From the NCBI RefSeq assembly GCF_013170845.1, contig NZ_CP033367.1, positions 1,364,001 to 1,428,000 of the forward strand: DNA of 64,000 nucleotides. Direction: 5' to 3'. Both the position numbers and the translations under genes were made by a program. Of this stretch, positions 12,502-61,203 are shown one piece after another (within the stretch, counting starts at the first letter, position 1; every line of letters starts with the position of its first letter). The stretch is from Mesorhizobium loti R88b (lineage in GTDB: Bacteria > Pseudomonadota > Alphaproteobacteria > Rhizobiales > Rhizobiaceae). The notes beneath the pieces were generated by a model. That model searched no databases and was not told the DNA's origin. It saw nothing but the letters and a program-made list of their open reading frames with translations.

Positions 12502-12513
12502 GCTGTTTCCGGG

Positions 12514-12544: not shown

Positions 12545-12552
12545 AGGAGATG

Positions 12553-14830: not shown

Positions 14831-14936
14831 GGCGGTTTCCACTTCGGCGACGAAGAGCGCCTTGTCCAAACCCGCGCCCCGACCCCAGAGATCGTGTCGT
14901 CGTGCGCTGTGAACCAGACTTGCGCTGGGCACATTT

Positions 14937-15862: not shown

Positions 15863-16022
15863 CGAAGCACGGACCGCGCCTCCGGCATGCGGAGCGACCA
15901 ACGCGCCATCCAGCCCAAGGTCGGTTCGACAACCCGGCGGGGGCAGGATATGAAATCCCATCCGTCATAGCAGGCGCCTCGCACCCAGGCACCTCGAGCG
16001 TTGACGATTCAGGAGGCGTGAA

Positions 16023-16748
16023 TTGGTCCGCTTGTCCTTTGTCGTGGCTTCGCTGGTTGCCATCGCGATAGGGTTACATGCCCCAACGATCTCCGAGGCG
16101 GCCGCGGTCTCGAAAGCAGCCGTGCCTGCTGCAAGCGCTCAACAGGATGACGTAAAACAGCTCCTTTCCGTGGTGCTGGCGGAAACCGAGGATTTCTGGG
16201 GCGCTACCTTCAAAGCGGATGGATCGACCTATGAGGAGCCCAAGCTGGTGCTGTTCACCGGCCTCATCGCTACCGCATGCGGTCCTGTTTCAGGGACATT
16301 GTACTGTGCGGCAGACCACAAGATTTATATCGATCCGGCGTTCCCCGAGCTTCAACAGATCGGCTTGACCGGCGATTTCGCCAAGGCGTTGATGGTGGCC
16401 CGAGAGGTTGGGCATCATGTGCAGACCATCTCGGCCGTTCCGCACGCTGATGTCACCGACGGTGACCTCGAAGCCGCCATCATCCGATCGGAACAGGTTG
16501 AGCTCCAGGCCGATTGTTTTGCCGGCCTGTGGAGCCGCTATGTCTGGGACAAGGGGTTGCTTGAAGACACCGATCTGACGGAGGCCAGGCAACTGCTTCG
16601 ATCTCTCGGAGACGATCAGGCCGCCAATGCCTCCAAAGATTCGACGGCAACGCGGTACGGAACCTCAGAACAGAGGATCCGCTGGTATGATCGGGGCCTT
16701 GCCGGAAAAGCGATCGCGGACTGCAACACCTCAGACAATCCGCTTTGA
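16023..16748 (+). CDS. Secreted neutral zinc metallopeptidase-like protein (YpfJ family), active site altered
   Basis: 241 residues with TTG start, chosen because AGGAGG lies six bases upstream and no in-frame ATG fits. An N-terminal signal peptide (VRLSFVVASLVAIAIGLHAP) leads to a periplasmic protein. The family landmarks are present: AETEDFWGATF, ATACGPVSGTLYCAADHKIYID, and VELQADCFAGLW with a candidate third-ligand Glu. The zinc motif, usually HEVGHH, reads REVGHH here (Arg127, Glu128, His131), through codon CGA, two substitutions from a His codon. The reading frame is otherwise intact and shows no decay, so it may be a pseudoenzyme rather than a pseudogene. Confidence 0.8.
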   Translation: MVRLSFVVASLVAIAIGLHAPTISEAAAVSKAAVPAASAQQDDVKQLLSVVLAETEDFWGATFKADGSTYEEPKLVLFTGLIATACGPVSGTLYCAADHKIYIDPAFPELQQIGLTGDFAKALMVAREVGHHVQTISAVPHADVTDGDLEAAIIRSEQVELQADCFAGLWSRYVWDKGLLEDTDLTEARQLLRSLGDDQAANASKDSTATRYGTSEQRIRWYDRGLAGKAIADCNTSDNPL

Positions 16749-47338: not shown

Positions 47339-47356
47339 TTTCACGCTGGTTTCACG
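47339..47356 (+). promoter_or_regulatory. Direct heptamer repeats, candidate SARP operator upstream of heme peroxidase 1
   Basis: TTTCACG (47339-47345), spacer CTGG, TTTCACG (47350-47356): identical heptamers on an 11-bp pitch. SARP-type activators are known to bind such tandem heptamers with 4-base spacers, just upstream of the -10 box. TGGAAT (47364-47369) follows at 7 bases as a possible -10. The same element is present at 53048-53065, and a SARP gene lies between them. Confidence 0.6.
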
Positions 47357-47396
47357 ACACGTATGGAATAGGCGCCAAGGGACGGGGAGAACCGGA

Positions 47397-49142
47397 ATGA
47401 ACGCTCATCGCGGCACGACTACCGCCGGGCTGGCCGTGTCGGGCGATGTTCAAAGCATCGCCGGCACTGCCGATCCGCGCCAAGTGCAGTTTCGCAACTT
47501 CGGCTATGCTGCCGGCGCGGACGAAGCCAAGCTCTATCATGGACTGGAGACGCCCTGGGCCACTCAGTGCCTGTTTGCCAAGCTGCTGCGAAGGATGAGT
47601 GTCGCATCCGCCGGAGGTGACAATACAACCAACGAGCGGATCCCGGCGGGATACACCTATCTTGCTCAGTTCGCCGCACACGACATTATCCGAAATTCCT
47701 CGCTCAGTCCCTTGTTGGCGGCCCGCGAAGCAGAGCGCCGCAACGAACGCGAGGAGGCGCTCCTACTCGACGTGCTTTACGGCGGAGGACCGTTCTCGAA
47801 CCCTGGTTTATATGCTGTGGCCAAGCCTGGCGAAGTCGTCAGGTCGATAATGCGTACCGGGCCGATGGCACCGCCGTCACCGACCGCCGCCATGGCGATG
47901 CCCGCAGGCGCCTGCCCCTTTGCCATGCGCGACTTGCCACGCTTTCAACAGGGCGATCTGAGCGATGGATCCGAAAGTGGCCGGACGGATGTCTTGGTCG
48001 CAGACCAGCGTAGCGACGACAACGCCAACATTGCGCAAATGACGGCGCTTTTCCTGCACCTGCACAATGCCGTGGCCGGCACACTGAGCAGCAGCGGAAT
48101 ACCCAAAAACGACGTCGAACTGCCCGCGGGTGCGTATCTCTTCGACCGGGCACGCCGGGTTACGACGGCGATTTACCGGAATGTGCTGCAAAACGACTTG
48201 CTGCCGCGCCTCATCGCCAAGCCGATCTGGGACCTCTACCATGCGAACGGGTTCAGACCCCTTGTCGACATGCAGCCGCAAGGTGTCCCGATAGAGTTTT
48301 CCCACGCGGCATATCGCTTGGGTCATGCCATGGTCCGGCTTTCCTATGTGTTTAATGACCAGCATCCGGAAGGGGAGGGGCTAGAGAACGTCTTGCTCAA
48401 CCGCTCCTCGTCGCGCCCGCATAAATTCCCGGTCTCCGAACACTGGGTTGCCGATTGGTCGCACTTCTTCCAGATTGCCGGCTCGACGCCGCAGTTCAGT
48501 CGGCGTATCGGGCCGACGATCAACCAAGTGCTGCTTAGTGCCTACAGCATGCCGATCCTTTGCGTTGGCCCTGATTCCAAAGCACTCGACCCCGCTGCGG
48601 CGAGTCAGTTGAGCGAAGCAGACAAGGCTGCTCTGCCCGATCCGAATGCGTCCGGACTGTTGTTCAGCGATCTGGTCCGAGGAGCCATTGGCGGTCTGCT
48701 CAGGCTCGATGCCTTGATCCAACAGCTACCGCAGGCCGTTCTCGCGGTCTCGCCGCTGCTGGGCGATGCCGAGAAACGGCACCAGGCTATTCGGTCCTGG
48801 CTTCAAGGATCGACCGTTGCCTTCACCGCGGCTGAGTCAACTGAGCTGGCAGAAAATCCGCCGTTGTTGCTCTGGCTGTTGTTCGAGGCCGCGATCGAGC
48901 AGGGCGGGCTGTGTTTCGGTACCATCGGATCGGTGATTGTAGGGGATGTCTTCATGGCAAGATTCGCGGCCTCGCGTGCCATGATCGAAGACGATCCAAT
49001 TACGCAAGACCTCGCCGCCAGTTTGTTTCCCACCGGCATCCCGCGAACAATGGCCGACCTGATTCTTTTCGTCGCCAGCGCGCTCAATCTGAGCGACGCC
49101 TGGCCCCGGTTTATCACCCCGTCTACAACTCCTGGAGCGTAA
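47397..49142 (+). CDS. Animal-type heme peroxidase (peroxidase 1), divergent
   Basis: 581 residues, start behind GGGGAGAACCGG. It belongs to the animal heme peroxidase/peroxinectin superfamily: distal His95 in TYLAQFAAHDI, catalytic Arg205 in VADQRSDDNANI and proximal His310 in FSHAAYRLGHAMVRLSY. Two usual residues differ: the Asp before the distal His (heme ester in mammalian enzymes) is Ala94, and the Glu three after Arg is Asp208, so a covalent heme link is unlikely. No signal peptide. The next gene begins one base after its stop, with its ribosome binding site inside this gene. Probable target of the SARP regulator. Confidence 0.85.
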   Translation: MNAHRGTTTAGLAVSGDVQSIAGTADPRQVQFRNFGYAAGADEAKLYHGLETPWATQCLFAKLLRRMSVASAGGDNTTNERIPAGYTYLAQFAAHDIIRNSSLSPLLAAREAERRNEREEALLLDVLYGGGPFSNPGLYAVAKPGEVVRSIMRTGPMAPPSPTAAMAMPAGACPFAMRDLPRFQQGDLSDGSESGRTDVLVADQRSDDNANIAQMTALFLHLHNAVAGTLSSSGIPKNDVELPAGAYLFDRARRVTTAIYRNVLQNDLLPRLIAKPIWDLYHANGFRPLVDMQPQGVPIEFSHAAYRLGHAMVRLSYVFNDQHPEGEGLENVLLNRSSSRPHKFPVSEHWVADWSHFFQIAGSTPQFSRRIGPTINQVLLSAYSMPILCVGPDSKALDPAAASQLSEADKAALPDPNASGLLFSDLVRGAIGGLLRLDALIQQLPQAVLAVSPLLGDAEKRHQAIRSWLQGSTVAFTAAESTELAENPPLLLWLLFEAAIEQGGLCFGTIGSVIVGDVFMARFAASRAMIEDDPITQDLAASLFPTGIPRTMADLILFVASALNLSDAWPRFITPSTTPGA

Positions 49143-49143
49143 A

Positions 49144-49545
49144 ATGGCCGACCCCGTCGATAATTTGGACGTCTTTCCCGAACCGATACAAACCCTCAAC
49201 TTCGAGGCGGCCGGCCGCAAGGTGGTGCAATGGGCACAGGATCCCAGCACCCGTCCGCGTGACTTGGCCGAGTTCAAGGCACAGTTGGATGGACTCGTCG
49301 TCGTGCCCGACCGCTACAAGGAAATTCAGATTGTCCAAGGCTATGACCACGTCTTCTTTCTGCGGCTGCCGCCCAACAACCAGGTGACGCAATCGCAAAA
49401 GAAGCTTCAGACCGAACAGGGCGGCATGACAGATTACGGCATTCCGGATTTCTATTTCGATGCCATTCTCGAGAAGGTGCCGTTCAACCGCGATAGTTTC
49501 TTCTATTCACGCATCGCCGACTACACCATTCGGGGCTGCCGATAG
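49144..49545 (+). CDS. 133-residue protein, candidate RiPP precursor with nitrile-hydratase-like leader
   Basis: Translationally coupled to peroxidase 1 (stop and ATG one base apart; CTGGAG upstream). Residues 42-78 (AEFKAQL, then VVVPDRYKEIQIVQGYDHV and FFLRLPP) resemble the leader of NHLP-type precursors, whose usual form is an EFxxxL helix and a VP...V.V.....LPP strand, but the DPxxAL helix part is missing. A Gly-Gly at 93-94 could be a cleavage site, leaving a 39-residue aromatic-rich tail (MTDYGIPDFYFDAILEKVPF...) ending in Cys132. The nearby YcaO enzyme makes this plausible. It may equally be an unrelated partner of the peroxidase. The last 39 bases overlap the end of the SARP gene. Confidence 0.5.
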   Translation: MADPVDNLDVFPEPIQTLNFEAAGRKVVQWAQDPSTRPRDLAEFKAQLDGLVVVPDRYKEIQIVQGYDHVFFLRLPPNNQVTQSQKKLQTEQGGMTDYGIPDFYFDAILEKVPFNRDSFFYSRIADYTIRGCR

Positions 49546-51573
49546 GCGGGACCCCGGCAACTGTTCATGGCTGACGACTATCCCAGCCCCGGCCAGCCCT
49601 CGGCGCAGTGTCTCGAGGGCCTCTGGACTGCTGATCGGAAAGCTGTCCATGAGCCACGTGCCCACATTGTCCGGCTCCGGAGGGGAATAGCCAAACCACT
49701 CCGTCTTCAGCTGCGCCAAAAATCGGTCGGCCTCTTCGTGCGCGGCCCTCTCGTTGCCGAGCAAGGCGAGAGCCGCAGCCTTCCAGCCGCCGATATAGGA
49801 CACGCTGTCGGCGGCGCGATCGGCCGCTTCGACGCAACCGGCATAGTCGCCAAGCAGGAACCGCACGCCTGCCTGATAGCTCCATTGCAATTGCGAAACC
49901 CCAAGCCCGGTCTGCAACGCCAGAGTAGCTATGCGGCTCGCGTTCTCGCGATCATCGCAATAGGCAAGCCCGAGAGACGCAGAGACCAACGTCCAAGGGT
50001 CGTTGCCATTGAGTTCACAGGCCAGAAGGAAGCTGATGGCCGCCTGCTGCGGAATGCCGTTCATGGCGTACGACCACGCCAGATGCAGTTGGCTTCGAGA
50101 ATCTATCGGATCGATCTGGGTTGCCTGCTTGGCAAAGATCAACGCTTCGGCATGGCGTTCGCGTCGGCGGCCTATGCCGGGAAAGATCAGATGCCGCGAA
50201 TTGATGATGCCGGCCAACCCGGCGTGGGCGGCAGCAAATTGGGGCGACTCCGCGATGATTGATCGGAAGAGCGCCTCGGCCCGTTCCTCGGACTCCGGGC
50301 GCCACTGAAAGATCAGCTCCTGCGCTCTCAGCCAGCGGTCGAACTGCTCCAGCGACAGGTCCGGGATGCTGGCGATCTGAACCAGCCGTTCGGACGACAT
50401 GCTTACACCCAGCGCGACGGCGATGCGGCGGATGAGCCTCTGTTGGGTCTGGTACCACTGGCTGTTCTCGATGACAAACTGCTCGCTCCAGATGTAGCGC
50501 CCGGAGGCAAGCTGCTTGAGCGTCATGCTGACACGAAATGTCGGCCCGTCGAGAAACCCGGTTGCCTCGATGCAATAGGCATTCTCGGTGAGGCGGGGTG
50601 GCTGCCCCTCCCATTCCATCACCGCCCAGTCGCGGAACCGAACCAGGGACGCAACCAGTTCGCTGCGGAAAATACGCACGGCGTTGCGCGCACGGACGGA
50701 ACCGCTCACCAATTCGAAGTCCCGCACGAACAAAAGCACGCCGGCGGCGGGCTCTTGCAGCCGTTGCGCTTGCGACCCGAACGCCTCGGCCGCGATTGCG
50801 GTCACAGCGCCCCTGCCCGCGCTGCCGATCGTGCCGAGCTTGATGTCGCTGACCAGTGCCTGCGTGGCCGCTGAAGGTTCGCTGTCGAACTCTGTTTCAA
50901 GCAGGTCCCAAAGCCCCTTATAAGCCCTCAAGGCCGTTGCCTGATCGCCCATCCGGGCAGACGCTTCCATGACCGCCCGGCACCCGATCTCGTTGGTCGG
51001 ATCGAGATTGAGCAGGGCTTGTCCGGCTCGCTTTAGCGCTGGCCAGTCCGTCGCGGCTTTGGCCATGGCTTCCAGACATGAGATAAATTCGTCCTGAAGA
51101 CATTGCCGCTGGACAAGGACCCAATTGCGAAACGAAGGATCGATGTCGTCCAGGCCATTGAGAAAGCTTTCGGCGACACGCTGCCTCTCCAGAAGGATGG
51201 GAGGAATCCGGCCAGTTTTCAGATCGTGCCTGATCTCACTCACATCCACAGTGACGAGCGACTGCTTCAGCGTCACGTTAAGCCGGTCCCCGAAGAAGAC
51301 CCCTTCGACTTCAGCCAGGCAGTCCTTGAGATCGACCACGGTTTGCCGCAGCGAGGCCCTTGCTCGTGCCTCGTCCGATTCACTCCAGAGCAAGCCGCAG
51401 ATACGCTCGCGTGTCTCAAAGCCATGAGGACTGAGTGCAAGATAGGCAAGGACGGCGCGCGACTTGCGGTTTCTCAAGGCGACGTCCCGCCCAAGCTGGC
51501 TCAGCGCGACCTTGTCAAGTGTCGTGACGCTGATCAGCGGCGCGGTCTTCGTTGGGGGTTTTTGCCCGATCAT
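49507..51573 (-). CDS. SARP/BTAD-type transcriptional activator with TPR region
   Basis: 688 residues. An OmpR-like winged helix (about 15-105; RDVALRNRKSRAVLAYLALS, GLLWSESDEARARASLRQTV) is followed by a bacterial transcriptional activator domain (about 110-245; WPALKRAGQALLNLDPTNEI, ATALRAYKGLWDLLETEFD), a TolB-like middle part (about 275-400) and helical TPR-like repeats (about 415-650). It lies 26 bases after the YcaO gene on the same strand, so the two are probably one operon. It is the likely reader of the repeats at 47339 and 53048. Its end overlaps the convergent candidate precursor gene. Confidence 0.85.
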   Translation of the reverse strand: MIGQKPPTKTAPLISVTTLDKVALSQLGRDVALRNRKSRAVLAYLALSPHGFETRERICGLLWSESDEARARASLRQTVVDLKDCLAEVEGVFFGDRLNVTLKQSLVTVDVSEIRHDLKTGRIPPILLERQRVAESFLNGLDDIDPSFRNWVLVQRQCLQDEFISCLEAMAKAATDWPALKRAGQALLNLDPTNEIGCRAVMEASARMGDQATALRAYKGLWDLLETEFDSEPSAATQALVSDIKLGTIGSAGRGAVTAIAAEAFGSQAQRLQEPAAGVLLFVRDFELVSGSVRARNAVRIFRSELVASLVRFRDWAVMEWEGQPPRLTENAYCIEATGFLDGPTFRVSMTLKQLASGRYIWSEQFVIENSQWYQTQQRLIRRIAVALGVSMSSERLVQIASIPDLSLEQFDRWLRAQELIFQWRPESEERAEALFRSIIAESPQFAAAHAGLAGIINSRHLIFPGIGRRRERHAEALIFAKQATQIDPIDSRSQLHLAWSYAMNGIPQQAAISFLLACELNGNDPWTLVSASLGLAYCDDRENASRIATLALQTGLGVSQLQWSYQAGVRFLLGDYAGCVEAADRAADSVSYIGGWKAAALALLGNERAAHEEADRFLAQLKTEWFGYSPPEPDNVGTWLMDSFPISSPEALETLRRGLAGAGIVVSHEQLPGSRLSAAPNGVVGDA

Positions 51574-51599
51574 CTTGCCCCGCAGCTCCCTGCCTCAAT

Positions 51600-52910
51600 C
51601 TACATAAGATCGGCACGGCCGCTCGGGCCGGCCTGATCGATCAGGGAACGAAGCCGGCGCGACTGGAACGGCGACGGAAAAGGCTGCAGCCCAGGGACGA
51701 AGACTTTGGCAACGGGAATGTCAAACATCGGCGTGGTCAGATCTGCAGCATATATGCGGTATTGCTTTTTAAGCATTTCGCCAACCAAGGATACGAAATT
51801 CAAGCCCTTCTCGGCATTTTTGTCCATCAGCAAGCCACCGGACAGGTGGGAGACGAGGCCAGTGTCGGTTGCGGCAGGGATCTGGGAGCGCTCCGCCTGC
51901 AGGCGCTCGACCTCATCGAGTGTCTCATCTCCCTGCTCCCTGCGCTTCATCGCCGTCAGGTCGAGAGCCAACTCCATCTGGCACATTTCGAGCAGCGCCG
52001 CCTTCAGAGCGCTGCCCGCGTCCAGCCTGCAGGCCAGCCCGACCGCCAGGCCGCCACCATCCGCGTCGAAGGATAGCGCCGCGATCACAGGCGATGGAAA
52101 CTCACCCGATATGTCGAGCAACTGGGTGCATCTGCCGGACTTCTCTTGCCTTATCCGTGCAAGCAGATCGAGTACACCCCAGCCGGCAAGCGCTTCCAGT
52201 CCGATCAGCCGGCCGCCGCGCCTGCTGCGCCACCAGGCGGCAGCAGCATCGCGCTCGATTGTTTCCAGCAGCGCCGAGGTCAGCGCAGCCTCGTGGGTCA
52301 TCCCCGCGGCGCATCCGCAACTGGTCACCCAGGCGCCTCGGGCTGCGCTGCGAATGAAAAGTGTCTCGGGCAAATAGCCCTTTCGGCCGTCGTCCAGCCG
52401 GCGCACGGGCACCCACCGGTCACTTTCACCAAAACCGGATTGCACACGGAAATCGTCCAGGTGATCGGCCAGCCGGGCGTCCTGCCAATGGCTTACTGCA
52501 TCTGCGCTCGAGTGGTTCATCGTCCCCTGCGGCACGTGCCATTCGCTGTGATATTCGATGCCCTCGCCGATGCAGGCCTCGAATGCTCGCCCCGGCGTGA
52601 GGCCGACACCGCTGAAGCTGGCAGAAGTGGCTGAGACAGAATCTCCCCAGTTGCGGTGTACCTGTGCACCAAAGAAGTACAACCCCGGTGCGTGGCGGGC
52701 GTGCAAGCGGAACAGGTTGCCAAAATCTGCCGCTGCTGACAGCAATCCCTGGCGGTTCTTTGTCACGAACAGGCCTGGATCTGTATCACCAGAGTCAAGG
52801 TAGCCGAGAGCACCGAGCAACCCGCGTGCCATTGCAGCCTGCTCGGGCGCCAATTCTTGGGGCCGTGAACAAAATCGCGCTGCCAGTTCAAACGCATTCG
52901 CGGCGGTCAA
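51600..52910 (-). CDS. YcaO-domain protein (ATP-dependent peptide backbone-activating enzyme)
   Basis: 436 residues from TTG, the only possible start in frame (GAGGATGG nine bases upstream, then an in-frame TAG further up). YcaO signatures with intact Mg-ATP ligands: GVGLTPGRAFEACIGEGIEY (Glu116, Glu119), SCGCAAGMTHEAALTSALLE and TIERDA (Glu216, Glu219), LKAALLEMCQMELAL (Glu308, Gln311). The C-terminus AKVFVPGLQPFPSPFQSRRL lacks the final PxPxP of azoline cyclodehydratases. No ThiF/ocin partner or TfuA gene lies in the window. YcaO enzymes make azolines, thioamides or amidines in peptides and proteins; which one applies here is open. Confidence 0.88.
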   Translation of the reverse strand: MTAANAFELAARFCSRPQELAPEQAAMARGLLGALGYLDSGDTDPGLFVTKNRQGLLSAAADFGNLFRLHARHAPGLYFFGAQVHRNWGDSVSATSASFSGVGLTPGRAFEACIGEGIEYHSEWHVPQGTMNHSSADAVSHWQDARLADHLDDFRVQSGFGESDRWVPVRRLDDGRKGYLPETLFIRSAARGAWVTSCGCAAGMTHEAALTSALLETIERDAAAAWWRSRRGGRLIGLEALAGWGVLDLLARIRQEKSGRCTQLLDISGEFPSPVIAALSFDADGGGLAVGLACRLDAGSALKAALLEMCQMELALDLTAMKRREQGDETLDEVERLQAERSQIPAATDTGLVSHLSGGLLMDKNAEKGLNFVSLVGEMLKKQYRIYAADLTTPMFDIPVAKVFVPGLQPFPSPFQSRRLRSLIDQAGPSGRADLM

Positions 52911-53309
52911 ATCACCATCCTCGCTGCTGAAGAAAACCTTTCCCTATTGTCTGCCACTTTCGCCTTACGATTTTGATCGGGTCAACAAAACGTTGCGTGC
53001 AAGAGGGTCCAGGCTCCGCAAAAACACGGGAGCCAAAGATGGTCCCATCTCACGCTGATTTCACGCTGGCTGGTCTAATGGTCAATTCAGAGAGGTCCTC
53101 TCGACCATCGCCGGCCCAGACCACCCGGACCGGACGCATCGAGACGACTGAAGATCGGCGCGAACTCGCATCCTCCCGGAGCGCCGCCGCGGGGCCATGA
53201 CTGGGGCGGGCCGGTCATGTGCCTCGCGGCCGCTGGGAAGCGGCGGAGGCGGATTCTTCAACACAAAGCCATCCTGCAATCGGCAACCGACAAGACAGGG
53301 AGATCAAAA
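52911..53309. other. Divergent control region between YcaO and heme peroxidase 2
   Basis: It carries the SARP-like heptamers (53048-53065) and the TCTAAT box. The stretch from about 53086 to 53309 would be a leader of some 220 bases for the peroxidase 2 message, longer than usual. Short frames there (one of 40 codons from ATG 53078) lack ribosome binding sites. The AT-richer part 52930-52990 probably holds the YcaO promoter. Confidence 0.5.
53048..53079 (+). promoter_or_regulatory. Direct heptamer repeats and -10 box, candidate SARP-controlled promoter of peroxidase 2
   Basis: TCTCACG (53048-53054), spacer CTGA, TTTCACG (53059-53065), spacer CTGG. Exactly eight bases after the second heptamer is TCTAAT (53074-53079), a good -10. 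This is the spacing reported for SARP promoters in actinobacteria. The heptamer and 11-bp pitch are shared with 47339-47356. Confidence 0.6.
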
Positions 53310-54866
53310 ATGGGAACGCATGGCACTCCGCCCCGGGGCATTAATGCGACACGATCGCCGCTGTTCGAAGGCCGCTTCGGCCGCATGTTCCGAAATCTGG
53401 CCCCCGCAGCGTTCGGGGCAACCGACCATGACAACCGGCGTAACCTCAAGGCTCTCGGTGCCGCCATGTCTGCTGAAATTGACGAACCGAAAGATGGGCT
53501 CGATGCCGAAGAAAGCGGGATTCCTGCGCTCTATACCTATTTTGGCCAGTTCGTCGACCACGACATCACCTTCGATCCTGTCAGCACCTTGCGCAAATCG
53601 CTGGATCCCGATGGGCTGACGGATTTCCGCACGCCGAGCTTCAACCTGGACAATGTCTATGGCCGGGGTCCGGCCGACCAGCCCTACATGTACACAAAAG
53701 AGGGACGGTTCCGCCACGGCGATGCAATGACAGGAGCGGGTGGCCAGCACGGACACGATCTGCCGCGCTTCGCCGGACGGGCAATCATCGGCGACCCCCG
53801 TAACGACGAAAACAGTCTGGTGTCGCAGCTGCAAGGGCTGATGCTCAAAGTGCACAACCGGATGATCGATGACAATCCGGGCCTGGGTTTTGAAGCGATC
53901 CAGCAGCTCGTCCGCTTCCACTACCAGTATGTTGTCGTCAATGACCTCCTGGCCAGGATCGTTTCGGCACCAGTCCTTGCCGCGCTCAAGACGGACGGCC
54001 GCTTCGATCGAAAGCAATTGCGGTACTTCCACTGGCGCAACCTGCCGTTCATGCCGGTGGAATTTTCGGTCGCCGCCTACAGGCTTGGCCATTCGATGAT
54101 AAGGCCGGGTTATCGGCTGAACGATCACAAGCTTTTGCCGATCTTTCCACGCGCCGGCAAACCGCATGAAGAGGCACTTACCGGTTTCGAGACAATGAAG
54201 CCGGGTCGCGCCCTGGACTGGGGCCGATTCATCGATATTGACGAACGCGCCGGTGGATCGGCTCCCGAGACTGGAGATCCGGCAAACATGCATCGACTGC
54301 AATTTGCCTACCGGATCGACACATCCCTCGTCGGTTTCCTGCACGATCTGCCGAAAACCGTGGCGGGCGACCCCCCGGCCTCACTGGGCGAGCGAAATCT
54401 GTTGCGGGGCTGGCTCCTCGGCCTGCCGTCCGGCCAGAGCGTCGCACGTGCCATGGGCATCGTTCCAATGGTCGATGCGGAAATCATAATCGGCAAGGCG
54501 GTGGACCCTCCCCCCGAGGCTGGCGACGTCGTAGGCCCCATCATCGATGCCGTCACAGCCAAAGGTGGCGACGGCAATGTCTTCGCCGACAATTGTCCAC
54601 TTTGGACCTATGTCCTTGCCGAAGCGGCAATGAACAAGACAGACATGCCTATCCCGGTAACGGGTGGCGGCATTCGTGCCACGCCGCAGCTTGGACCGGT
54701 GGGCGGACGTATCGTGGCGGAGGTGTTCCTTGGACTGCTGTTCGGCGACGGCATGTCCTACCTGTCGCTCGACCCTTTGTGGCAACCCGTGACCGGGACA
54801 GGCTTCAGACTAAAGGACTTGGTCTCATACGGGCTCGGCACCGGGCCGGCCCTTCACTACCGGTGA
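53310..54866 (+). CDS. Animal-type heme peroxidase (peroxidase 2)
   Basis: 518 residues from the ATG behind AGGGAG; the frame upstream is not family-like. All key residues are kept: Asp83-His84 in YFGQFVDHDITFDP, Arg164 and Glu167 in IGDPRNDENSL, proximal His261 in VAAYRLGHSMIRPGY. FRTPSFNLDNVYGRGPADQPY is typical of bacterial members of the family. No signal peptide. By family it should oxidise halides or aromatic side chains with hydrogen peroxide. It is a distant paralog of peroxidase 1 and the first gene of a long plus-strand series. Confidence 0.92.
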   Translation: MGTHGTPPRGINATRSPLFEGRFGRMFRNLAPAAFGATDHDNRRNLKALGAAMSAEIDEPKDGLDAEESGIPALYTYFGQFVDHDITFDPVSTLRKSLDPDGLTDFRTPSFNLDNVYGRGPADQPYMYTKEGRFRHGDAMTGAGGQHGHDLPRFAGRAIIGDPRNDENSLVSQLQGLMLKVHNRMIDDNPGLGFEAIQQLVRFHYQYVVVNDLLARIVSAPVLAALKTDGRFDRKQLRYFHWRNLPFMPVEFSVAAYRLGHSMIRPGYRLNDHKLLPIFPRAGKPHEEALTGFETMKPGRALDWGRFIDIDERAGGSAPETGDPANMHRLQFAYRIDTSLVGFLHDLPKTVAGDPPASLGERNLLRGWLLGLPSGQSVARAMGIVPMVDAEIIIGKAVDPPPEAGDVVGPIIDAVTAKGGDGNVFADNCPLWTYVLAEAAMNKTDMPIPVTGGGIRATPQLGPVGGRIVAEVFLGLLFGDGMSYLSLDPLWQPVTGTGFRLKDLVSYGLGTGPALHYR

Positions 54867-54963
54867 AACCCACGCCTGGCGGAGGTGATGGGTCATCTCC
54901 TCAAGGGCATTGCCAAGACATCTCCGACCTCGCTGCGCAGTCCAAGTCAATTCTCCTATGTAA

Positions 54964-56097
54964 ATGCGGAGCCAAGACGTGGCCGTCAAAGTTTATTTCG
55001 CGACAAATCGCCAGCCTTACACAGATCCCGGTAGCGGCAGGATCACCCGGTTCGGAGACGATCCCGGACCGGTTGGCGGCCTCAATGTGCGTTACGGCAG
55101 CGCGGATGTGGACGTTGATCTCGACGCGCGCACCAACACGATGGTCGCAGGGTCCCTGCAGGTGGCGGACGAGCAGCTCATTCCCGCTCAAGGCGGTCAG
55201 CCGCAGCTGGGCAGCTCGACGATATTCGACGCCCTGCGCAACGACATGAAAACGTCCCAGCGACCGACCATCGCGTTCATCCATGGGTTCAGCAACAGCT
55301 TTACCGACGCGATTGAGCGCGCAGGCTGGATTTCGGCGTTCTATGGTCTGGATGCCAATATGTTCGTGTTCACCTGGCCGTCGCGAGGTTCGCCACTCGG
55401 CGTTCCCCTACCCTACACTGACTACACGCACGACAGGAAAACCGCTGTTATGTCGGGTCCGGCCGTCGCGCGCACGATCCGACGCCTGCATGATTATGTG
55501 GATTCCTTGCCCCCTGATCTGGCTTGCGACCAGCCGATCCACCTGCTGTGCCACAGCATGGGCAATTACGTCCTTCGCAATGCGCTGCAGGCGCTTATGC
55601 GGCTGCCTGACCCGACGGTGGCCAGTCACTCGGGCGAGGCCGTCTCGGACATGGTGCCTCTGCCGCAGAATGTGCCCGACCCGTCGGTTCTGAGGCGAAC
55701 CTTCGACAAGATCGTGCTGGCCGCAGCCGATGAGGATGCCGACGCTTTTGACGACCCGGCAAAGTTGAAGTTCCTGCCCAGGATCGGCCAGTCGGTTTCC
55801 GTATACCATTCGTTGAAGGACTGGGTTCTGAACACTCTGAGTGACAGGACAAAATTCAACGGGCCGCGGCTGGGAAGCGATGGTCCGGACAATATGGCGA
55901 CGATCAGCGACAAGGTCACCGCAATCGACTGCGCTGATGTGACGTCCTTTGCCAAGGATCCGGAAGAACACCAGTACTACCGGGTGTTTCCCGTGGTCCG
56001 AAACGATATCGTCCAAGTGCTCAGGGGGGTCCCGCAAAACAAGGTCAGAAACCGGGCTGCTGTCTCGCAGGGGCGATACCGCATCAAGCCGGCCTGA
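54964..56097 (+). CDS. DUF900-type alpha/beta hydrolase
   Basis: 377 residues. VKVYFATNRQPYTD, the oxyanion region TIAFIHGFSNSFTDAI (His107-Gly108), and the nucleophile elbow HLLCHSMGNYVLRNAL with Ser198 fit the DUF900/esterase-like hydrolases. The residue before His-Ser is Cys, where Gly is usual. Candidate acid and base residues are in VLAAADEDADAF and SVYHSLKDW. There is no signal peptide and no clear ribosome binding site; a GTG five codons later is an alternative. Function in the cluster is unknown; it could cleave an ester or peptide-linked group. Confidence 0.8.
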   Translation: MRSQDVAVKVYFATNRQPYTDPGSGRITRFGDDPGPVGGLNVRYGSADVDVDLDARTNTMVAGSLQVADEQLIPAQGGQPQLGSSTIFDALRNDMKTSQRPTIAFIHGFSNSFTDAIERAGWISAFYGLDANMFVFTWPSRGSPLGVPLPYTDYTHDRKTAVMSGPAVARTIRRLHDYVDSLPPDLACDQPIHLLCHSMGNYVLRNALQALMRLPDPTVASHSGEAVSDMVPLPQNVPDPSVLRRTFDKIVLAAADEDADAFDDPAKLKFLPRIGQSVSVYHSLKDWVLNTLSDRTKFNGPRLGSDGPDNMATISDKVTAIDCADVTSFAKDPEEHQYYRVFPVVRNDIVQVLRGVPQNKVRNRAAVSQGRYRIKPA

Positions 56098-56193
56098 ACG
56101 GGGAGGGGCGATGGGTGATTCACAGCGCTTTTTCCAATTTGAATGCTGAACAGGAGGAACGCGAGCGTTCCGCAGTGAAGGCCGGGGTGTTGG

Positions 56194-57540
56194 ATGACGA
56201 ACTTGAGGGCTGGTTGCTTTGCTCAGACGCGGATGGTCATGCGTTCGGTCGTTGCGTGGGCGATGTCCATCGCAATGACGCTGTTTGCTGCTGGCTGCGT
56301 TCAAAACTATCCTGACGGTGTCGGTACCAAGCTCAATCCTGGCAACCTGCCGGCGCAGACCGACTTGCAGAATGCCTATGTCGAGGAGATCTGTCAGCAG
56401 GCAGGTCTTCAGCCGACGGCATCCAACGGCGTGACCAGTTGCGGTTCCAGTCCCTACGACGCGGGGACCTGGTGGCTGTTCGTGCAAGCCGGGATGAACG
56501 ACATCGACCAGCGGTGCGATTCGTATTTGGTCTGGCTCGATGACGCGCAGCGTTCACGCGAGCCGGTGCTCGACGAACTGTCGCAGCTCAGCACCACTGC
56601 GCAGACGATCATGCGCTCGACTGGCGTTGGCGCCAATCCGATTACCATCGTTGGTGCGGCGTTCGGGCTGGCGAGCGGTACGTTCACCAACGTCTATTCG
56701 CGCATGATCATCACCATGCCGCACTCGACCATACAGGCCGTTGTCCTCAGCCGGCAGAAGGAGTACCGGGAGCAACTCATCGGCAATTCGACCAACAGGC
56801 CGCAGGTTGCTATCGTCAACCGGCCGGCTGCCCTCTATGCGCTGCGCTCCTATCTGCGTCTGTGCATGCCGATGACGATCGAGACCGAGATCAACAACAC
56901 GATCGCAACCTTCGAGCGCAACGGGGCCGATGGGCTGGAAAAGGACTCGCTGATTTCGGCCCAGAGCGCAGGCGTTCCTTTCACCCCGGCCAGCAAGCCG
57001 CAGAAACCGATACGCGCGCCGGTCGCCTCGCCCCCTCCCGTAGTCGTACAGTTTTTTGCCGAAAAAACCCTCAGCCAGGAGGAAGCGGACTTTACGCTGG
57101 GTGGGCTTTGTATCGAGAACAACAAGGGCACCGAACTGCCCCAGAGAGATCTGATCAAAGCACTGATCGCAATTTATCGTGCAACGCCAGGCTCGCCGAG
57201 TACGACGTCCGGGGACACCATCAGTCGCAACGATCGGCTTGCCATCAACAAGCAATCAAATTGTGGCGCCGCCAGGAACTATTTTGAGAAATTCACCTAC
57301 GCCAATACTGCCCAGCCTGGAAACAACGCCTTCAACCTCGCCGCCTTCACGGATTTGTTGAAACGCTCGCAGGCCGGCCGCGATCTTTCCGGCTCCCCTG
57401 CTCTCGATAGCCAGGTTCTACGCGACAAGATCAGGGCCGCACGTGTTGAGCTGTCCCTCACAGACGTGCCGTCGCCGATGAGTTCGCACGTCACTCCTGC
57501 GCTGATTACGGCCTTGAAAAAGCTCCCGAAACCCAACTGA
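56194..57540 (+). CDS. Predicted lipoprotein of unknown function
   Basis: 448 residues as written; starting at the later ATG 56239 gives a more typical signal (MRSVVAWAMSIAMTLFAAGC) with the lipobox Cys at 20. The mature part is polar, with a Pro-rich linker near 250-265 (FTPASKPQKPIRAPVASPPP) splitting two domains, and several Cys. A weakly hydrophobic helix (NPITIVGAAFGLASGTFTNV) lies near 150. I do not recognise the family. With the following genes it forms a closely spaced plus-strand run (13 bases to the next gene). Confidence 0.7.
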   Translation: MTNLRAGCFAQTRMVMRSVVAWAMSIAMTLFAAGCVQNYPDGVGTKLNPGNLPAQTDLQNAYVEEICQQAGLQPTASNGVTSCGSSPYDAGTWWLFVQAGMNDIDQRCDSYLVWLDDAQRSREPVLDELSQLSTTAQTIMRSTGVGANPITIVGAAFGLASGTFTNVYSRMIITMPHSTIQAVVLSRQKEYREQLIGNSTNRPQVAIVNRPAALYALRSYLRLCMPMTIETEINNTIATFERNGADGLEKDSLISAQSAGVPFTPASKPQKPIRAPVASPPPVVVQFFAEKTLSQEEADFTLGGLCIENNKGTELPQRDLIKALIAIYRATPGSPSTTSGDTISRNDRLAINKQSNCGAARNYFEKFTYANTAQPGNNAFNLAAFTDLLKRSQAGRDLSGSPALDSQVLRDKIRAARVELSLTDVPSPMSSHVTPALITALKKLPKPN

Positions 57541-57553
57541 TTGAAGGTTAGTC

Positions 57554-59434
57554 ATGACTGTCTATCTGGTTAGAGGCTTCCCCGACCTGCTCGACAAGCC
57601 TGGCGGTACGGCTCTCGTCGGCCTCTTCGGAAACATGACGGCTGTCGGTACCGGCAATGTCTCGGGCGACTTTGTCGAGGTAAAGGTCGGAGATCAGACA
57701 GGGTGGGTATCGAAGGACAGTCTGGTCGTAAAAGATCGCGATGTGTTGGACGAGGTGGCTTTCGTGCGCGAAAGCATCATCGCGGAGCGGGCGGTCAATG
57801 CGCTCTCGCAGACCGCGCCCTGGTTTGTTTCAGCTGACTATGTCATCGCCCGGGCGATTTTCGAAAGCCAGGACATCGCACGCAAACTGGTGAATGCCGG
57901 CAACAAGATCCCGGGATCGGACACCGTTGGGCCGTTGCAAATGTCCACCGCCGAATGGCAGACGTTCCTCGCCAATGGTGGCACGCTCGCTGCCGACTTT
58001 GGCACCGCGAGCGTGGATGATTACCTGGCGCAGGCCTGGGGCGCTGCATTCACGATGTTCACCGACGCCAAGGCCATCACCCAAGTGAAACTTGACGCCG
58101 GTCAGGGCAGCAACGCCGATCCGCCGCTACCGAGCTATCTAGAGATATTCCTGGCCTATCTGACCACCAGCCCCAAAGCGGCCACGAGTCTTGCCGCGGC
58201 CGCCGCAACTCCGGCAGACAAGGGTCAAGATGGGGCACAGGCGGGCATCGCCGGGGCAGGCGCCGGGGTTGCGCCGGCCGCGCCAGTGCCCCAGGGCGCA
58301 AGCAAGCTCAATGACTTCCTCAAGAACACCGCTGTCCTGCGCGACGACCAGATCGAGACCTTGTTCAAGGCGCGCCCCGGCCTCACAGGAACGAACGACG
58401 CCAATGCAAAGACGGTGGGCGATTTCGTCAACAGCGTCAGCACGGCGCTTGGTCAAGCGCTCAGAGACGCCGCGGACCTTATTGCCAAGGATGCGCCCGA
58501 AACCGTTGCGGCAATCATTGGGACGGGCGGCGCACCATGGATGACAGTTGCGACGGCTGAGCGAAATAAGGGCATCAAGGAAGGCACTGCGGCCGGCGAT
58601 GCCGAAATTCTCAGCTATTTCCAATCGATCAACATCCAGGCAAAAACCTCGGCGACACCCTGGTGCGCTGCATTCGTCTCGTTTTGCATGAAGACCAGCG
58701 GCAACCAGGTCGCAGCCGATAGCATACCGAAGACCGCTCCGGCGCTGGCGGCAAGCTGGAAGGGCTGGGGCAGTCCATTGCCGGCCAACGCCAGCACCAC
58801 CCCGCAGGGCGCCGTCGTCGTATTGTCACCAACGGAAGACCAGGACGACTCCGGTCACGTCGGCTTCTTCGTCAGCGGCAACACCGACACAATTACGCTA
58901 TTGGGCGGCAACCAGACGAATGCGGTCAAGGAAAGCACCTACGCGCGCTCCCGTGTCGCTGCGATTCGCTGGCTCGACGTGGCGCAGCCGGCCGCTGCCG
59001 GGCCAGTTGCCGCAGGTCCCATCAACCTCAGCCGCTTCAACGCTAAGCAGCAAGCGGCGGCAAAAATCATCATCGATAGATTCGCCGCCAGCGGTTTCGG
59101 CTCGGTGCATCAGATCACCGCGGTCGCCAATGCCTGGAAGGAATCAAGTCTCAATCCAAGCGAGCAAACCCATACGTCGCGCGAAGACAGTATTGGCCTG
59201 TTTCAGCTCAATATGCGCTCGGGCCTCGGCGTCGGGCACCAACTGAACGATCTGCTCGATGCCACCAAAAACACCGACATCATCATCGATACCTGCAAGA
59301 GCGTTCCCGAATTCAAAAACGCGCAAGACCTGGCAGCTGCGGTTACCGCGTTCGTGCGTTTCGTCGAAAAACCAGCCAATCAACCGGCGGAAATCATCGA
59401 TCGGTTGCAGAAGGCAAAATCGCTTGAGGCCTGA
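57554..59434 (+). CDS. Three-module peptidoglycan hydrolase-like protein
   Basis: 626 residues, start after GAAGGTTAGTC. Residues 1-60 look like an SH3-type domain (FVEVKVGDQTGWVSKDSLVV). A first lysozyme-like region has Glu104 in YVIARAIFESQDIAR and GPLQMSTAEWQ. A central CHAP/NlpC-like (TIGR02594-type) amidase has Cys371 in ATPWCAAFVSFCMK and a His near 435 in DDSGHVGFFVSG. The C-terminal region resembles phage-tail lysozyme (ITAVANAWKESSLNPSEQTH with Glu near 529, IGLFQLN). Ala/Gly/Pro-rich linkers join the parts. No signal peptide, so export would need a holin or a secretion machine. Confidence 0.75.
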   Translation: MTVYLVRGFPDLLDKPGGTALVGLFGNMTAVGTGNVSGDFVEVKVGDQTGWVSKDSLVVKDRDVLDEVAFVRESIIAERAVNALSQTAPWFVSADYVIARAIFESQDIARKLVNAGNKIPGSDTVGPLQMSTAEWQTFLANGGTLAADFGTASVDDYLAQAWGAAFTMFTDAKAITQVKLDAGQGSNADPPLPSYLEIFLAYLTTSPKAATSLAAAAATPADKGQDGAQAGIAGAGAGVAPAAPVPQGASKLNDFLKNTAVLRDDQIETLFKARPGLTGTNDANAKTVGDFVNSVSTALGQALRDAADLIAKDAPETVAAIIGTGGAPWMTVATAERNKGIKEGTAAGDAEILSYFQSINIQAKTSATPWCAAFVSFCMKTSGNQVAADSIPKTAPALAASWKGWGSPLPANASTTPQGAVVVLSPTEDQDDSGHVGFFVSGNTDTITLLGGNQTNAVKESTYARSRVAAIRWLDVAQPAAAGPVAAGPINLSRFNAKQQAAAKIIIDRFAASGFGSVHQITAVANAWKESSLNPSEQTHTSREDSIGLFQLNMRSGLGVGHQLNDLLDATKNTDIIIDTCKSVPEFKNAQDLAAAVTAFVRFVEKPANQPAEIIDRLQKAKSLEA

Positions 59435-59461
59435 AGCAGGCCAGCTTTACAGGAGGGACAA

Positions 59462-60166
59462 ATGGCGCAAATCCTCGATTCCTTGACAAACGGCGGCTTG
59501 CCAAATCTCGTCAATCTCATCACGGCTGTTGGCGCGCTGGGCGGCGCGGCCATGGGGCTGGTCGATACGACCAAGCTGTTTGGTGGCGGTCCATCCAACT
59601 TCGGATTCGGTTACATCGAGCAAGCGCTCTCCCCGTTCCTGAGCGCTCTTGCGTCCAGTTCCACTCCTTACGGAAAACACGCGATCTTGCGGACGCTAAG
59701 AGCGGACTGGTTGAACGGCGTCGCCAAGGATGACCAAAAGGCCAAGGCCAAGTCGCTCATTCAACTCAGCCTTTCGCAGATCGATGCGACGGCCCTGGCC
59801 AATGTTGCCGCCGTCGATCCAGCTGCGTTGCAATCGGCGGTGCAGAAGAAAGCCAGCAGCCAGGCTGCCGCTCCCGAGGAAGCAAGCGCTCTCGGGCAAT
59901 TCGAGGCCGTGCTAGGCGCTGTGATCGATACAGCCTACGAGCGCGGTGACCAGGAATATCGCAATGCCTCGAAATTCCTTGCCATGCTGACATCTGTCGC
60001 GCTTGGAGCCGCAGGCGGTTCGATCGTCTTTTATCCTATCGGGCACGGCGATCTGCTGTTTTGCGTGCTCGCGGGCCTCATCGCGACGCCAGTGGCGCCT
60101 GTCGCCAAGGACCTGGCAAGCGCGCTTCAGACAGCAGTCGCCGCCGCCAGCGCACTCAAGAAATGA
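59462..60166 (+). CDS. Predicted membrane protein, possibly holin-like
   Basis: 234 residues, start after AGGAGGGACAA. Hydrophobic segments lie near 15-35 (NLITAVGALGGAAMGLVDTT) and 165-205 (SVALGAAGGSIVFYP, LLFCVLAGLIATPVAP), with a helical Ala/Ser-rich middle. No family recognised. It follows the hydrolase gene by 27 bases, and the pairing of a wall hydrolase with a small membrane protein is reminiscent of lysis or release cassettes; that link is inference only. Confidence 0.65.
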   Translation: MAQILDSLTNGGLPNLVNLITAVGALGGAAMGLVDTTKLFGGGPSNFGFGYIEQALSPFLSALASSSTPYGKHAILRTLRADWLNGVAKDDQKAKAKSLIQLSLSQIDATALANVAAVDPAALQSAVQKKASSQAAAPEEASALGQFEAVLGAVIDTAYERGDQEYRNASKFLAMLTSVALGAAGGSIVFYPIGHGDLLFCVLAGLIATPVAPVAKDLASALQTAVAAASALKK

Positions 60167-60259
60167 CAAGGTCCGCCCGCGCAAATATCAAGCCGAGCTC
60201 GCCGCGACTGAAGCGCGAGTCGGGCTCAAACTGCAGGCAAGAGTGGGGAGGGGAAGACC

Positions 60260-60985
60260 GTGACCAATCGCGTCGCAAGCTTTCTTGCAGCGCTAACAAT
60301 TGCCAGCGCATGCGCATTGCTTCTTGAGGTCAACTACACTTTTGCGCAAGAGCGTGTGGATAGATTTGAAGGGACCCTGGTACTTCGCGACTACAGCGGC
60401 AGCGAATCAAAAAAGTTCGAACTCGATTCAGATCTCAAGTACGTCGATCCGAATGGCCGGGAGTGGTACGCTTGGAAAGGCTTGATAACTGACGGCGCAT
60501 CGATACCGTGGTTCCTCTGGTCGGTTGTGGGCTCGCCTTTCACTGGGGAGTACAGACGGGCTGCTATCATTCACGACTTCTATTGTGCCCATCACTTCCG
60601 GCAGTGGGAGACCGTATCCAGAGTATTCTATGATGCCATGTTGACAGATGGTGTCAATTCAACAAAAGCATCTCTTATGTATTATGCGGTAGTTAGATTT
60701 GGTCCACGATGGACGATTAAAGAGACAGAGACTTGCCCCAAGTTGCAATTGTGCGCCAATCCCGGGAAATTGGAGGTAAATGTTTCAACGCCATCTGTTT
60801 CAAAAAGCTTTGAGAAGGGCTATTTGGATGAAGTGGAATCGGTAAGAAAATACATCGATGAGAACCATCCGAACTTGGCACAGCTGCAGAGCTTAGCTGC
60901 CTCTAAACCGCCGATACCGCAATCATACTCGGATGAAAACATCATTGATAACTGGAACGACAATCTCTGGAGAAGTAGGGAGTAG
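60260..60985 (+). CDS. DUF1353 family secreted protein
   Basis: 241 residues from GTG behind GGGGAGGGGAAGACC. A signal peptide (VASFLAALTIASACALLLEV, cleavage near TFA/QE) leads to a DUF1353 domain: WYAWKGLITDGASIPWFLWS, YRRAAIIHDFYCAHHF and VSRVFYDAMLTDGVNSTKA, with conserved Asp, His and Asp that look like a catalytic or metal site. The family is frequent in phages and genomic islands. The 3' half is clearly richer in A and T than the neighbours, a sign of separate origin. It is the last gene before the tRNA. Confidence 0.8.
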   Translation: MTNRVASFLAALTIASACALLLEVNYTFAQERVDRFEGTLVLRDYSGSESKKFELDSDLKYVDPNGREWYAWKGLITDGASIPWFLWSVVGSPFTGEYRRAAIIHDFYCAHHFRQWETVSRVFYDAMLTDGVNSTKASLMYYAVVRFGPRWTIKETETCPKLQLCANPGKLEVNVSTPSVSKSFEKGYLDEVESVRKYIDENHPNLAQLQSLAASKPPIPQSYSDENIIDNWNDNLWRSRE

Positions 60986-61113: not shown

Positions 61114-61203
61114 TGGCGGAGAGGGAGGGATTCGAACCCCCGATGGGCTTGCACCCATGCCGCATTTCGAGTGCGGTGCATTCGACCACTCTGCCACCTC
61201 TCC
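61114..61203 (-). tRNA. tRNA-Ser (anticodon CGA)
   Basis: 90 bases with encoded CCA. Acceptor stem GGAGAGG pairs with CCTCTCC; the anticodon stem CCGCA/TGCGG encloses CTCGAAA with anticodon CGA (codon UCG); a long variable arm (CATGGGTGCAAGCCCATC) and T-loop GGTTCGAATCC are present. Its 3' end points toward the accessory region at 47-61 kb, the usual direction for island insertion at a tRNA. Confidence 0.96.

Follow-up and report, generated by a model that had tools for sequence, protein, structure and literature searches.

The window, a stretch of 64,000 nucleotides of the Mesorhizobium loti R88b genome, carried on its plus strand the gene for an animal-type protein of the heme peroxidase superfamily of 581 aa (PoxA, 47397..49142; PF03098 51 bits, cut-off 25) and, starting one base past its stop, an ORF for a small protein of 133 aa (P133, 49144..49545). 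Tail-to-tail with the latter, the 3' ends overlapping by 39 bases, lay the minus-strand gene of a BTAD (SARP-type) regulator of 688 aa with a TPR-like C-terminal part (49507..51573; PF03704 49.7 bits, cut-off 22.1), followed on the same strand by that of a YcaO enzyme of 436 aa (51600..52910; PF02624 148.1 bits, cut-off 25.7). Beyond these came a plus-strand series: a second heme peroxidase, PoxB (53217..54866; PF03098 34.3 bits, cut-off 25; QFVDHD and RNDE motifs), a DUF900 alpha/beta hydrolase (54964..56097; PF05990 88.9 bits), a 448-aa protein with no family match, a lipoprotein by reading (56194..57540), a CHAP-domain protein of 626 aa (57554..59434; PF05257 32.2 bits, with a weaker lysozyme-like match to TIGR02594, 81.7 bits), a 234-aa protein matching no Pfam or NCBIfam family (59462..60166) and a DUF1353 protein (60260..60985; PF07087 81.2 bits). 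The two heme peroxidases, the YcaO, the BTAD protein, the 133-aa ORF and the plus-strand series named in the original prediction were all present at their coordinates. PADLOC anti-phage models matched none of ten proteins, nine from the window and one from locus L015.

Searches of genomes with a P133 profile, seeded from loci found via YcaO, gave 30 loci in 29 genomes (class search: alignment A1, E up to 0.01; other searches: A2, E up to 0.001). Some were identical to loci of the YcaO search (L044 = L015, L055 = L003, L071 = L005, L073 = L004), and L015, L003 and L055 were omitted when the families were aligned, since each duplicated another row. The BTAD regulator stood tail-to-tail with P133 in 30/30 loci and a YcaO ORF adjoined in 28/30. 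PoxA was present in 26, and a CxxCH-type protein replaced it in three of the four loci without it. No heme partner was seen in L010, L013, L018 and L046. Carriers were soil and plant-associated bacteria of many genera, with differing flanks; the distribution was patchy (12/119 in the genus, 12/297 in the family, 3/385 in the class and 6/398 in the phylum), and the genome of the window held a second, diverged set of the module. Across the 119 genomes of the genus, YcaO occurred in 12/12 with P133 versus 45/107 of the others, and PoxA-profile matches of at least 518 bits all fell at P133 loci (11/11; next best 269 bits), this profile having been built from 13 rows of P133-linked PoxA, the window genome contributing two of them. 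The closest relatives of the YcaO, 85-87% identical, were in named Mesorhizobium genomes. The divergence of the four core proteins was correlated (r 0.78-0.96; 0/5000 permutations) over the 16 non-redundant loci that remained of 23 four-gene loci once near-duplicates had been removed.

YcaO, BTAD regulator, PoxA and P133 form a conserved four-gene unit. A full-text literature search found no description of such a gene set. PoxB stood beside this core at no more than five distinct loci, every one of them in Mesorhizobium: the window, L003, L004, L005 and L066, to which the eight labelled entries (W, L003, L004, L005, L055, L066, L071 and L073) reduce. The genes past it were DUF900, the 448-aa protein and CHAP in the window, a PG-binding protein and a patatin in L003, and a protein of the 448-aa type with CHAP in L005 and L066. 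PoxB and the hydrolase series, down to the 234-aa and DUF1353 proteins, are variable Mesorhizobium neighbours outside the core. The cluster had originally been proposed as one set; this was supported for the four linked genes and not supported for PoxB and the hydrolase/lipoprotein/CHAP series. The co-occurrence search suggested along with it, in which genes scattered and never together would have spoken against the proposal, found the four core genes together. It is very improbable that the four are mere neighbours on a shared genomic island, without joint chemistry: patchiness and differing flanks would suit such an island, but the same four genes recur amid those flanks in many genera, a fusion and a second diverged copy exist, and PoxA co-occurs with P133.

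By its sequence, the window enzyme is a member of the YcaO superfamily. Six glutamates (E116, E119, E216, E219, E308 and E313), presumably those of the ATP site, were each kept in at least 28/30 aligned YcaOs, in agreement with the intact site noted at the outset; the YcaOs of L013, L017 and L056, being split, partial or deleted, were omitted from the alignment, and those of L068 and L069 matched the Pfam model over no more than positions 76/78 to 325. The best NCBIfam model in all seven YcaOs scanned was the SagD-like, azoline-forming TIGR03604, at 110.6-144.7 bits (window YcaO 122.9), short of its cut-off of 219.25 in every case. The best PDB sequence matches were LynD and TruD. The E. coli-type model NF040716 matched one of the seven, with 16.8 bits against a cut-off of 700. 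The E1/ocin-ThiF-type model TIGR03882 had no match in the whole genome, and none of 14 control genomes passed its cut-off either; TfuA (PF07812) had no match in the window genome. The predicted lack of a ThiF-like or TfuA partner was thus upheld genome-wide with these models. The predicted lack of a dehydrogenase partner was upheld at the locus and not genome-wide, the sole SagB-type gene (TIGR03605, 105.8 bits, cut-off 78.4) being located some 91 kb away from the YcaO of the window. Judged by model scores, neither a SagD-type YcaO over the curated cut-off, nor an E1-type partner, nor a clustered SagB-type dehydrogenase was found.

PoxA falls within the animal heme peroxidase superfamily by its PF03098 match and conserved His/Arg/His, and is a putative peroxidase. 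Q91 (25/25), H95 (25/25), R205 (24/25) and H310 (25/25) were conserved in the alignment, among which we take the distal His, the Arg and the proximal His to lie. The position that we take to be that of the Asp of covalent heme attachment, by an ester, was Asp in 0/25. The peroxidase of L014 was excluded from the set. In one lineage PoxA and P133 were fused (20 proteins). Their catalytic Arg position was not Arg in 19/19 readable sequences, which makes ordinary peroxidase chemistry doubtful there. The predicted model of one fusion protein was closest to animal heme peroxidases (two PDB matches with E up to 0.001, low TM-scores).

P133 belongs to no family in Pfam or NCBIfam. Twelve members run against both gave chance-level matches to unrelated models (best E 0.09), catalogued precursor families (NHLP, Nif11 and others) gave no match, and neither did a fold search of the PDB. 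The AF2 model predicted a folded protein (mean pLDDT 89.1) with a low-confidence end (residues 131-133, mean 67); in both predicted models, the terminal cysteine lay within these last three, low-confidence residues. In the window the protein ends in RIADYTIRGCR. Of 93 P133 sequences, 84 were distinct by their last 60 residues, and the tail motif R-x-[AG]-[DE]-Y-x4-C-x-stop was found in 82 of these, the two homologs without it being P0025 and P0031 (69 aa). Cys at -2 was present in 82/82 motif-bearing sequences, residue -3 was variable, and over the last eleven residues this was the only invariant Cys/Ser/Thr position. The invariance of this C-terminal cysteine raises the likelihood of a modified protein. 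This accords with the modified peptide or protein, outside the standard azole pathway, that had been put forward originally; azole and thioamide partners were not found with the models tried.

The same tail can be seen as a very short core past Tyr127, with the rest of P133 as a long folded leader, the core being modified by YcaO and PoxA, cleaved and exported as a secreted RiPP. Enzyme-precursor fusions do occur in borosins. Structured leaders that present the core to an azoline-forming YcaO are also on record, namely nitrile hydratase-like ones (PMC12455567). However, the P133 tail is conserved rather than diversified, precursor families are unmatched, and no peptidase or immunity-type gene recurred in an all-against-all comparison that took in the ORFs of the window and of 36 loci. 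The sole cluster spanning seven groups consisted of generic-looking ABC-transporter ATPases of differing kinds, 3-7 kb away. A secreted peptide is, on this evidence, an improbable outcome.

The regulator showed four conserved N-terminal residues (R55, W63, R72 and Q77, 32/32) and a TPR_17 match below cut-off (17.5 of 24.4 bits). Winged-helix models were unmatched by the window regulator, and the second-copy regulator matched Trans_reg_C below cut-off. In L005 (= L071) the gene was split in two ORFs, of which one fragment was used. The divergence of the regulator followed that of P133 (r 0.92) and PoxA (r 0.96), with r 0.93 between the latter two. TPR domains that bind C-terminal peptides exist, and the P133 C-terminus, modified or not, may be the ligand of the TPR-like region, so that a redox or heme state is reported to transcription. 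Of all partners the regulator is the most constantly present (30/30), its divergence tracks P133 and PoxA closely, and by reading its counterpart in a parallel cluster, described below, retains the TPR-like region. On the other hand, the TPR match does not reach its cut-off, the correlation is explained by linkage alone, and these bacteria may commonly have regulators built in this way. We think such sensing unlikely as the main explanation.

The terminal cysteine could act unmodified, as a thiol, a ligand or a binding signal. One version of this gives the YcaO another target, for example a host protein, and makes P133 a subunit or chaperone of PoxA, with its terminal cysteine as ligand or redox thiol. 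The fusion of P133 to PoxA would fit, as would L047, where PoxA, P133 with its tail and the regulator are kept without an adjacent YcaO; the other YcaO of that genome (G450) is outside the module's subfamily (82 bits). In L056 the adjacent YcaO has an internal deletion and the P133 tail is kept; its genome (G931) has another YcaO of the module's subfamily (453 bits). The E. coli YcaO, moreover, recognises folded uL16 without an RRE (PMC13063428). Yet the YcaO ORF adjoins P133 in 28/30 loci, the NF040716 score is far from its cut-off (16.8 bits versus 700), and the C-x ending recurs in a second small protein next to a related YcaO. We regard another target as decidedly unlikely.

That second protein belongs to a related YcaO/regulator/heme-protein cluster and has no detectable relationship to P133. 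The C-x ending was found in 17/17 of its fairly close database relatives. By reading, the regulator of this parallel cluster has, besides the TPR-like region, an extra N-terminal cyclase-like stretch. In the same genus, L083 had YcaO, a peroxidase and a TfuA-like gene, the last by reading.

Our preferred reading, to which we give a probability of about one half, is a four-gene protein-modification module in which YcaO modifies the penultimate cysteine of P133 and the heme partner acts on or with the tail. P133 would be a folded carrier protein presenting this cysteine, and the proposed site, the Gly131-Cys132 codons, lies at 49534..49539 on the plus strand. We infer that YcaO would use ATP for activating the backbone amide that immediately precedes Cys132, perhaps leaving a thiazoline ring there. 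The heme partner, PoxA or in some loci the CxxCH protein, would work beside P133, or fused to it in one lineage, and either oxidise the modified tail or rely on it as a cofactor that stays bound. Control of the gene set would fall to the BTAD regulator, which may sense the module product. The 28/30 linkage, the tail motif, the fusions, the SagD-like best model and the recurrent C-x ending speak for modification of P133. Against it stand two of 30 loci without an intact adjacent YcaO, yet with the tail kept, TIGR03604 below cut-off in all seven YcaOs, and E1-like and TfuA partners that were not found. A more specific version is tentative: a C-terminal heterocycle on the carrier may possibly serve the heme enzyme as its working cofactor or as its target for oxidation, and also be the signal for the TPR-type regulator. 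This would amount to a new class of YcaO chemistry, in which the product stays built into the protein as a redox cofactor or sensor and no peptide is released. Two carrier families that show no detectable relationship, with heme partners of two kinds, would have arrived at this logic.

The best-known work of YcaO enzymes is the making of peptide natural products and, to our knowledge, only a few folded proteins have been identified as targets. The module, if read correctly, would bring in a YcaO substrate of a new kind and, perhaps, a new cofactor derived from a protein. It points to a precise candidate site, Cys132, and suggests a role for the P133 family, which has neither annotation nor a relative of solved structure. 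Four findings go beyond the original prediction: the C-terminal motif, the second genomic copy, the fusion of PoxA with P133 in one lineage, and the CxxCH protein that takes the place of PoxA in some loci.

Several known systems share features with the module. Like azol(in)e-forming YcaOs (TOMM/LAP/cyanobactins: SagD, LynD, TruD), the YcaO has TIGR03604 as best model, LynD and TruD as PDB matches and a proposed cysteine target. The module differs in having, as substrate candidate, a long folded protein whose end bears one cysteine, in a score below the SagD cut-off, and in that an E1-like partner was not found and the SagB-type gene is unlinked. YcaO-TfuA thioamidated RiPPs likewise have YcaO proteins in related bacteria, but here TfuA was unmatched. 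PoxA resembles animal heme peroxidases in its Pfam match, distal His, Arg and proximal His, and differs from them in lacking the covalent-heme Asp and, in the fused forms, the Arg. The thiazoline-forming YcaO of bottromycin works without an E1 partner. It is one of two YcaO proteins of that pathway and turns cysteine into thiazoline (PMC8442711); this and the other stand-alone system, streptamidine, differ from the module in their origin in Actinobacteria and Firmicutes and in making peptide natural products. The E. coli YcaO thioamidates uL16, a folded protein, and together with DVU2210 (YcaO-TPR) it is alike in its folded-protein target and TPR association (PMC13063428, PMC7774982); there the TPR is inside the YcaO protein, and by model scores the module YcaO is of a different subfamily. 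Nitrile hydratase-like leader precursors such as MprE are long and folded, with the C-terminal part modified by YcaO (PMC12455567). P133 differs from these in matching no model, in an end that is not diversified and in its heme partner; it is likewise long and predicted to be folded, with its candidate site at the C-terminus.

The open reading frames and domains of the original prediction, a SARP-controlled YcaO/heme-peroxidase peptide-modification cluster, were all found in the window as stated. From left to right, these are the An_peroxidase protein PoxA, the 133-aa protein P133 without an assigned family, a BTAD regulator, YcaO, the second An_peroxidase, PoxB, and then a plus-strand series of DUF900, a 448-aa protein, CHAP, a 234-aa protein and DUF1353. 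The regulator gene lies on the strand opposite to P133, with a 39-base overlap of their 3' ends, and the YcaO gene is located immediately upstream of the regulator in the same orientation. The unit, however, is four genes: YcaO, regulator, P133 and PoxA recur together at most of 30 P133 loci, whereas PoxB and the series following it vary. The window genome, a single 7.2-Mb contig, itself contains a second, diverged set of the four at 6.31 Mb (10561-16434 of locus L024, G000:C1:6304000-6323000), where YcaO is divergent from the regulator and P133 ends in RLGDYVMSRCK. The nearest loci (L003, L004 and L005) belong to named Mesorhizobium genomes and have YcaO identities of 85-87%.

A search starting from YcaO gave 17 loci, 15 of which also carried P133 and the regulator; the two others, L012 and L017, lie on short contigs. 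Whole-genome searches with a P133 profile seeded from these loci had matches in 3 of 385 class-level genomes, in 12 of 297 at family level, in 6 of 398 at phylum level and in 12 of 119 within the genus, the window genome being counted in each total. Combined, the P133 searches yielded 30 loci in 29 different genomes, and all 30, the window among them, were inspected. The regulator adjoined P133 in converging orientation in every case, a YcaO ORF stood beside both in 28, and PoxA adjoined P133 in 26. The YcaO ORF was cut by the contig end at L026 and probably at L046. At L047 an adjacent YcaO was absent, and at L056 the YcaO (12205-12894) carried an internal deletion, the remaining three ORFs being of full length. 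The L056 genome holds a further YcaO of the same subfamily (L077, 7107-8489). In the L047 genome, another YcaO (82 bits to the window-type family) sits beside a related regulator (194 bits; L076, 5290-8982), which suggests that the YcaO-regulator pairing extends beyond the four-gene module.

Pairwise distances of the four proteins correlated over 16 non-redundant loci (r = 0.78 to 0.96), and none of 5000 label permutations matched any of these values. Since shared descent of linked genes suffices for such a correlation, it speaks for joint inheritance and not for contact. In the 119 genus genomes, a PoxA profile gave 11 matches of at least 518 bits, all at P133 loci, the next best reaching 269 bits; the profile was built on 13 PoxA proteins encoded at P133 loci, of which the window genome supplied two, and favours P133-linked matches. 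YcaO was present in 57 of these genomes, in 12 of 12 with P133 and in 45 of 107 without it. No fifth gene common to most groups emerged when ORFs from 36 loci plus the window were compared. The widest extra ORF cluster covered seven groups at 3-7 kb distance and resembled ABC-transporter ATPases of different kinds. A protein of 380-529 aa was shared near the unit by three genera (L014 1507-3096, L015 16396-17538, L048 2184-3716); two scanned members had no Pfam match.

PoxB stood beside the four-gene unit at five distinct loci, in Mesorhizobium. In the window it is followed by DUF900, the 448-aa protein and CHAP, in L005 and L066 by a 448-aa-type protein and CHAP, and in L003 (3248-7738) by peptidoglycan-binding and patatin-like proteins. 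We read PoxB and the genes after it as strain-variable neighbours. A minus-strand tRNA gene at 61117-61203 of the window lies close to where the variable series stops and may be the border of an island.

P133 itself is poorly conserved, with a mean identity of about 28% over 16 loci. Its C-terminal motif R-x-[AG]-[DE]-Y-x-x-x-x-C-x was nevertheless found in 82 of 84 distinct sequences, the exceptions being P0025 and P0031 (69 aa). The arginine (-11), tyrosine (-7) and cysteine (-2) were each kept in all 82, and positions -3 and -4 varied. Comparison with Pfam, NCBIfam and PDB sequences gave chance-level matches only, and Foldseek found no structural relative in the PDB (best E 5.8). AlphaFold2 predicted a mostly helical, confident fold (mean pLDDT 89.1, pTM 0.81) with a final helix stopping at residue 128; residues 131-133, including the cysteine, averaged 67.

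In some relatives, PoxA and P133 form a single ORF. A database search restricted to long proteins, with only the P133 portion scored, found 20 fusions. Each has the C-terminal tail; 19 measure 640-668 aa and the remaining one 423 aa, and three carriers are named (Amaricoccus sp. twice and one Rhodobacteraceae bacterium). One fusion was modelled with a mean pLDDT of 76.2, with values below 50 for the last three residues. Given the low confidence of the tail in both models, the invariant cysteine would probably sit at a loose end and not be needed for folding. Two PDB matches of the fusion model had E <=0.001, a cyanobacterial peroxidase and lactoperoxidase, followed by DUOX, alpha-dioxygenase and COX-2, all with low TM-scores.

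PoxA was missing from four of the 30 P133 loci (L048, L068, L069 and L046). At L048 its place was taken by a one-CxxCH-motif protein on the same strand, at L068 by a relative on the opposite strand, and the L069 protein was 78% identical to that of L068; on the short contig of L046 neither kind was seen. Proteins of this type at the PoxA position measured 558-646 aa (L014 12847-14787, L016 3763-5457 and L048 10013-11782, minus strand; L068 10422-12098, plus strand), and the three scanned had no Pfam match. Fusion to PoxA and exchange of PoxA for a CxxCH protein argue that P133 works beside a heme-type protein.

A parallel cluster was reached through weaker peroxidase matches near a YcaO (L084 6041-12053, L085 5838-11798) or through a related YcaO match (L086 1614-8145). 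It comprises a cyclase-like plus BTAD-type regulator, YcaO, a small protein and a partner of the PoxA-like or CxxCH kind. Its YcaO scored about 230 bits against the window-type profile and its regulator 583-601 bits, with an additional N-terminal stretch that we read as a nucleotide cyclase. The heme partner was PoxA-like at L084 and L085 (170 and 183 bits); L086 had instead a CNGCH-motif protein, in our reading of the CxxCH kind. L085 followed the gene order of the P133 sets, its small protein being tail-to-tail with the regulator, and at L084 and L086 the three genes run in series on a single strand. The small protein was not recognised by the P133 profile (profile comparison probability 0.1). 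A C-x ending, LLTRCR, was found in the L086 protein and 17 database relatives (48-99% identical), and likewise at L084; the L085 protein, just 29% identical, ends in MLRRCR. No match appeared in 297 genomes of the family, so either the small protein is rare or this sample was wrong for it. In the same genus, L083 (3657-11648) carries a cyclase-TPR-like protein, YcaO, a protein we read as TfuA-like and a heme peroxidase, along with small ORFs; it may be a thioamide-type relative of these clusters.

The presumed ATP-site glutamates of YcaO are kept in the family alignment. Its best PDB sequence matches were LynD and TruD, and the top NCBIfam model for seven scanned YcaOs was SagD-like azoline-forming (110.6 to 144.7 bits, below the cut-off of 219.25). 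The window genome had no TfuA and no TIGR03882 match; a SagB-type dehydrogenase gene (TIGR03605, above cut-off) lies at G000:C1:1323910-1324413, at a distance of about 91 kb from the YcaO gene of the window. The residues that we take to be the distal Gln and His and the proximal His were present in 25 of 25 aligned PoxA and the Arg in 24, and the Asp presumed to link heme covalently in none. PoxB carries QFVDHD and RNDE. In fused PoxA-P133, the Arg position was occupied by another residue in 19 of 19 readable sequences.

The likely target is the C-terminal cysteine of P133, Cys132. ATP-dependent closure by YcaO is the simplest chemistry that fits: with ATP, YcaO would close Cys132 onto the preceding amide, leaving a thiazoline followed by one residue, and the heme partner would have the same tail as its target or work together with it. 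We give about an even chance (roughly 0.5) to YcaO acting at Cys132 and the heme partner working on the tail it modifies. The weak points of this reading are L047 and L056, without an intact adjacent YcaO, and, for the heme partner, L010, L013, L018 and L046, where none was recognised. The idea of a modified peptide or protein is partly supported and sharpened to four genes and one cysteine, PoxB and the plus-strand series dropping out as strain-variable neighbours.

No paper on such a YcaO/heme-peroxidase/SARP/P133-type gene set was among the full-text matches listed by a YcaO-centred literature search, and the set is, by those matches, apparently undescribed. Parts of the proposed mechanism have precedents. 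Folded leaders engaging azoline-forming YcaO enzymes are known (PMC12455567), and recognition of a folded protein by E. coli YcaO is described (PMC13063428). In bottromycin, a YcaO forms a thiazoline from cysteine (PMC8442711), as proposed here for Cys132.
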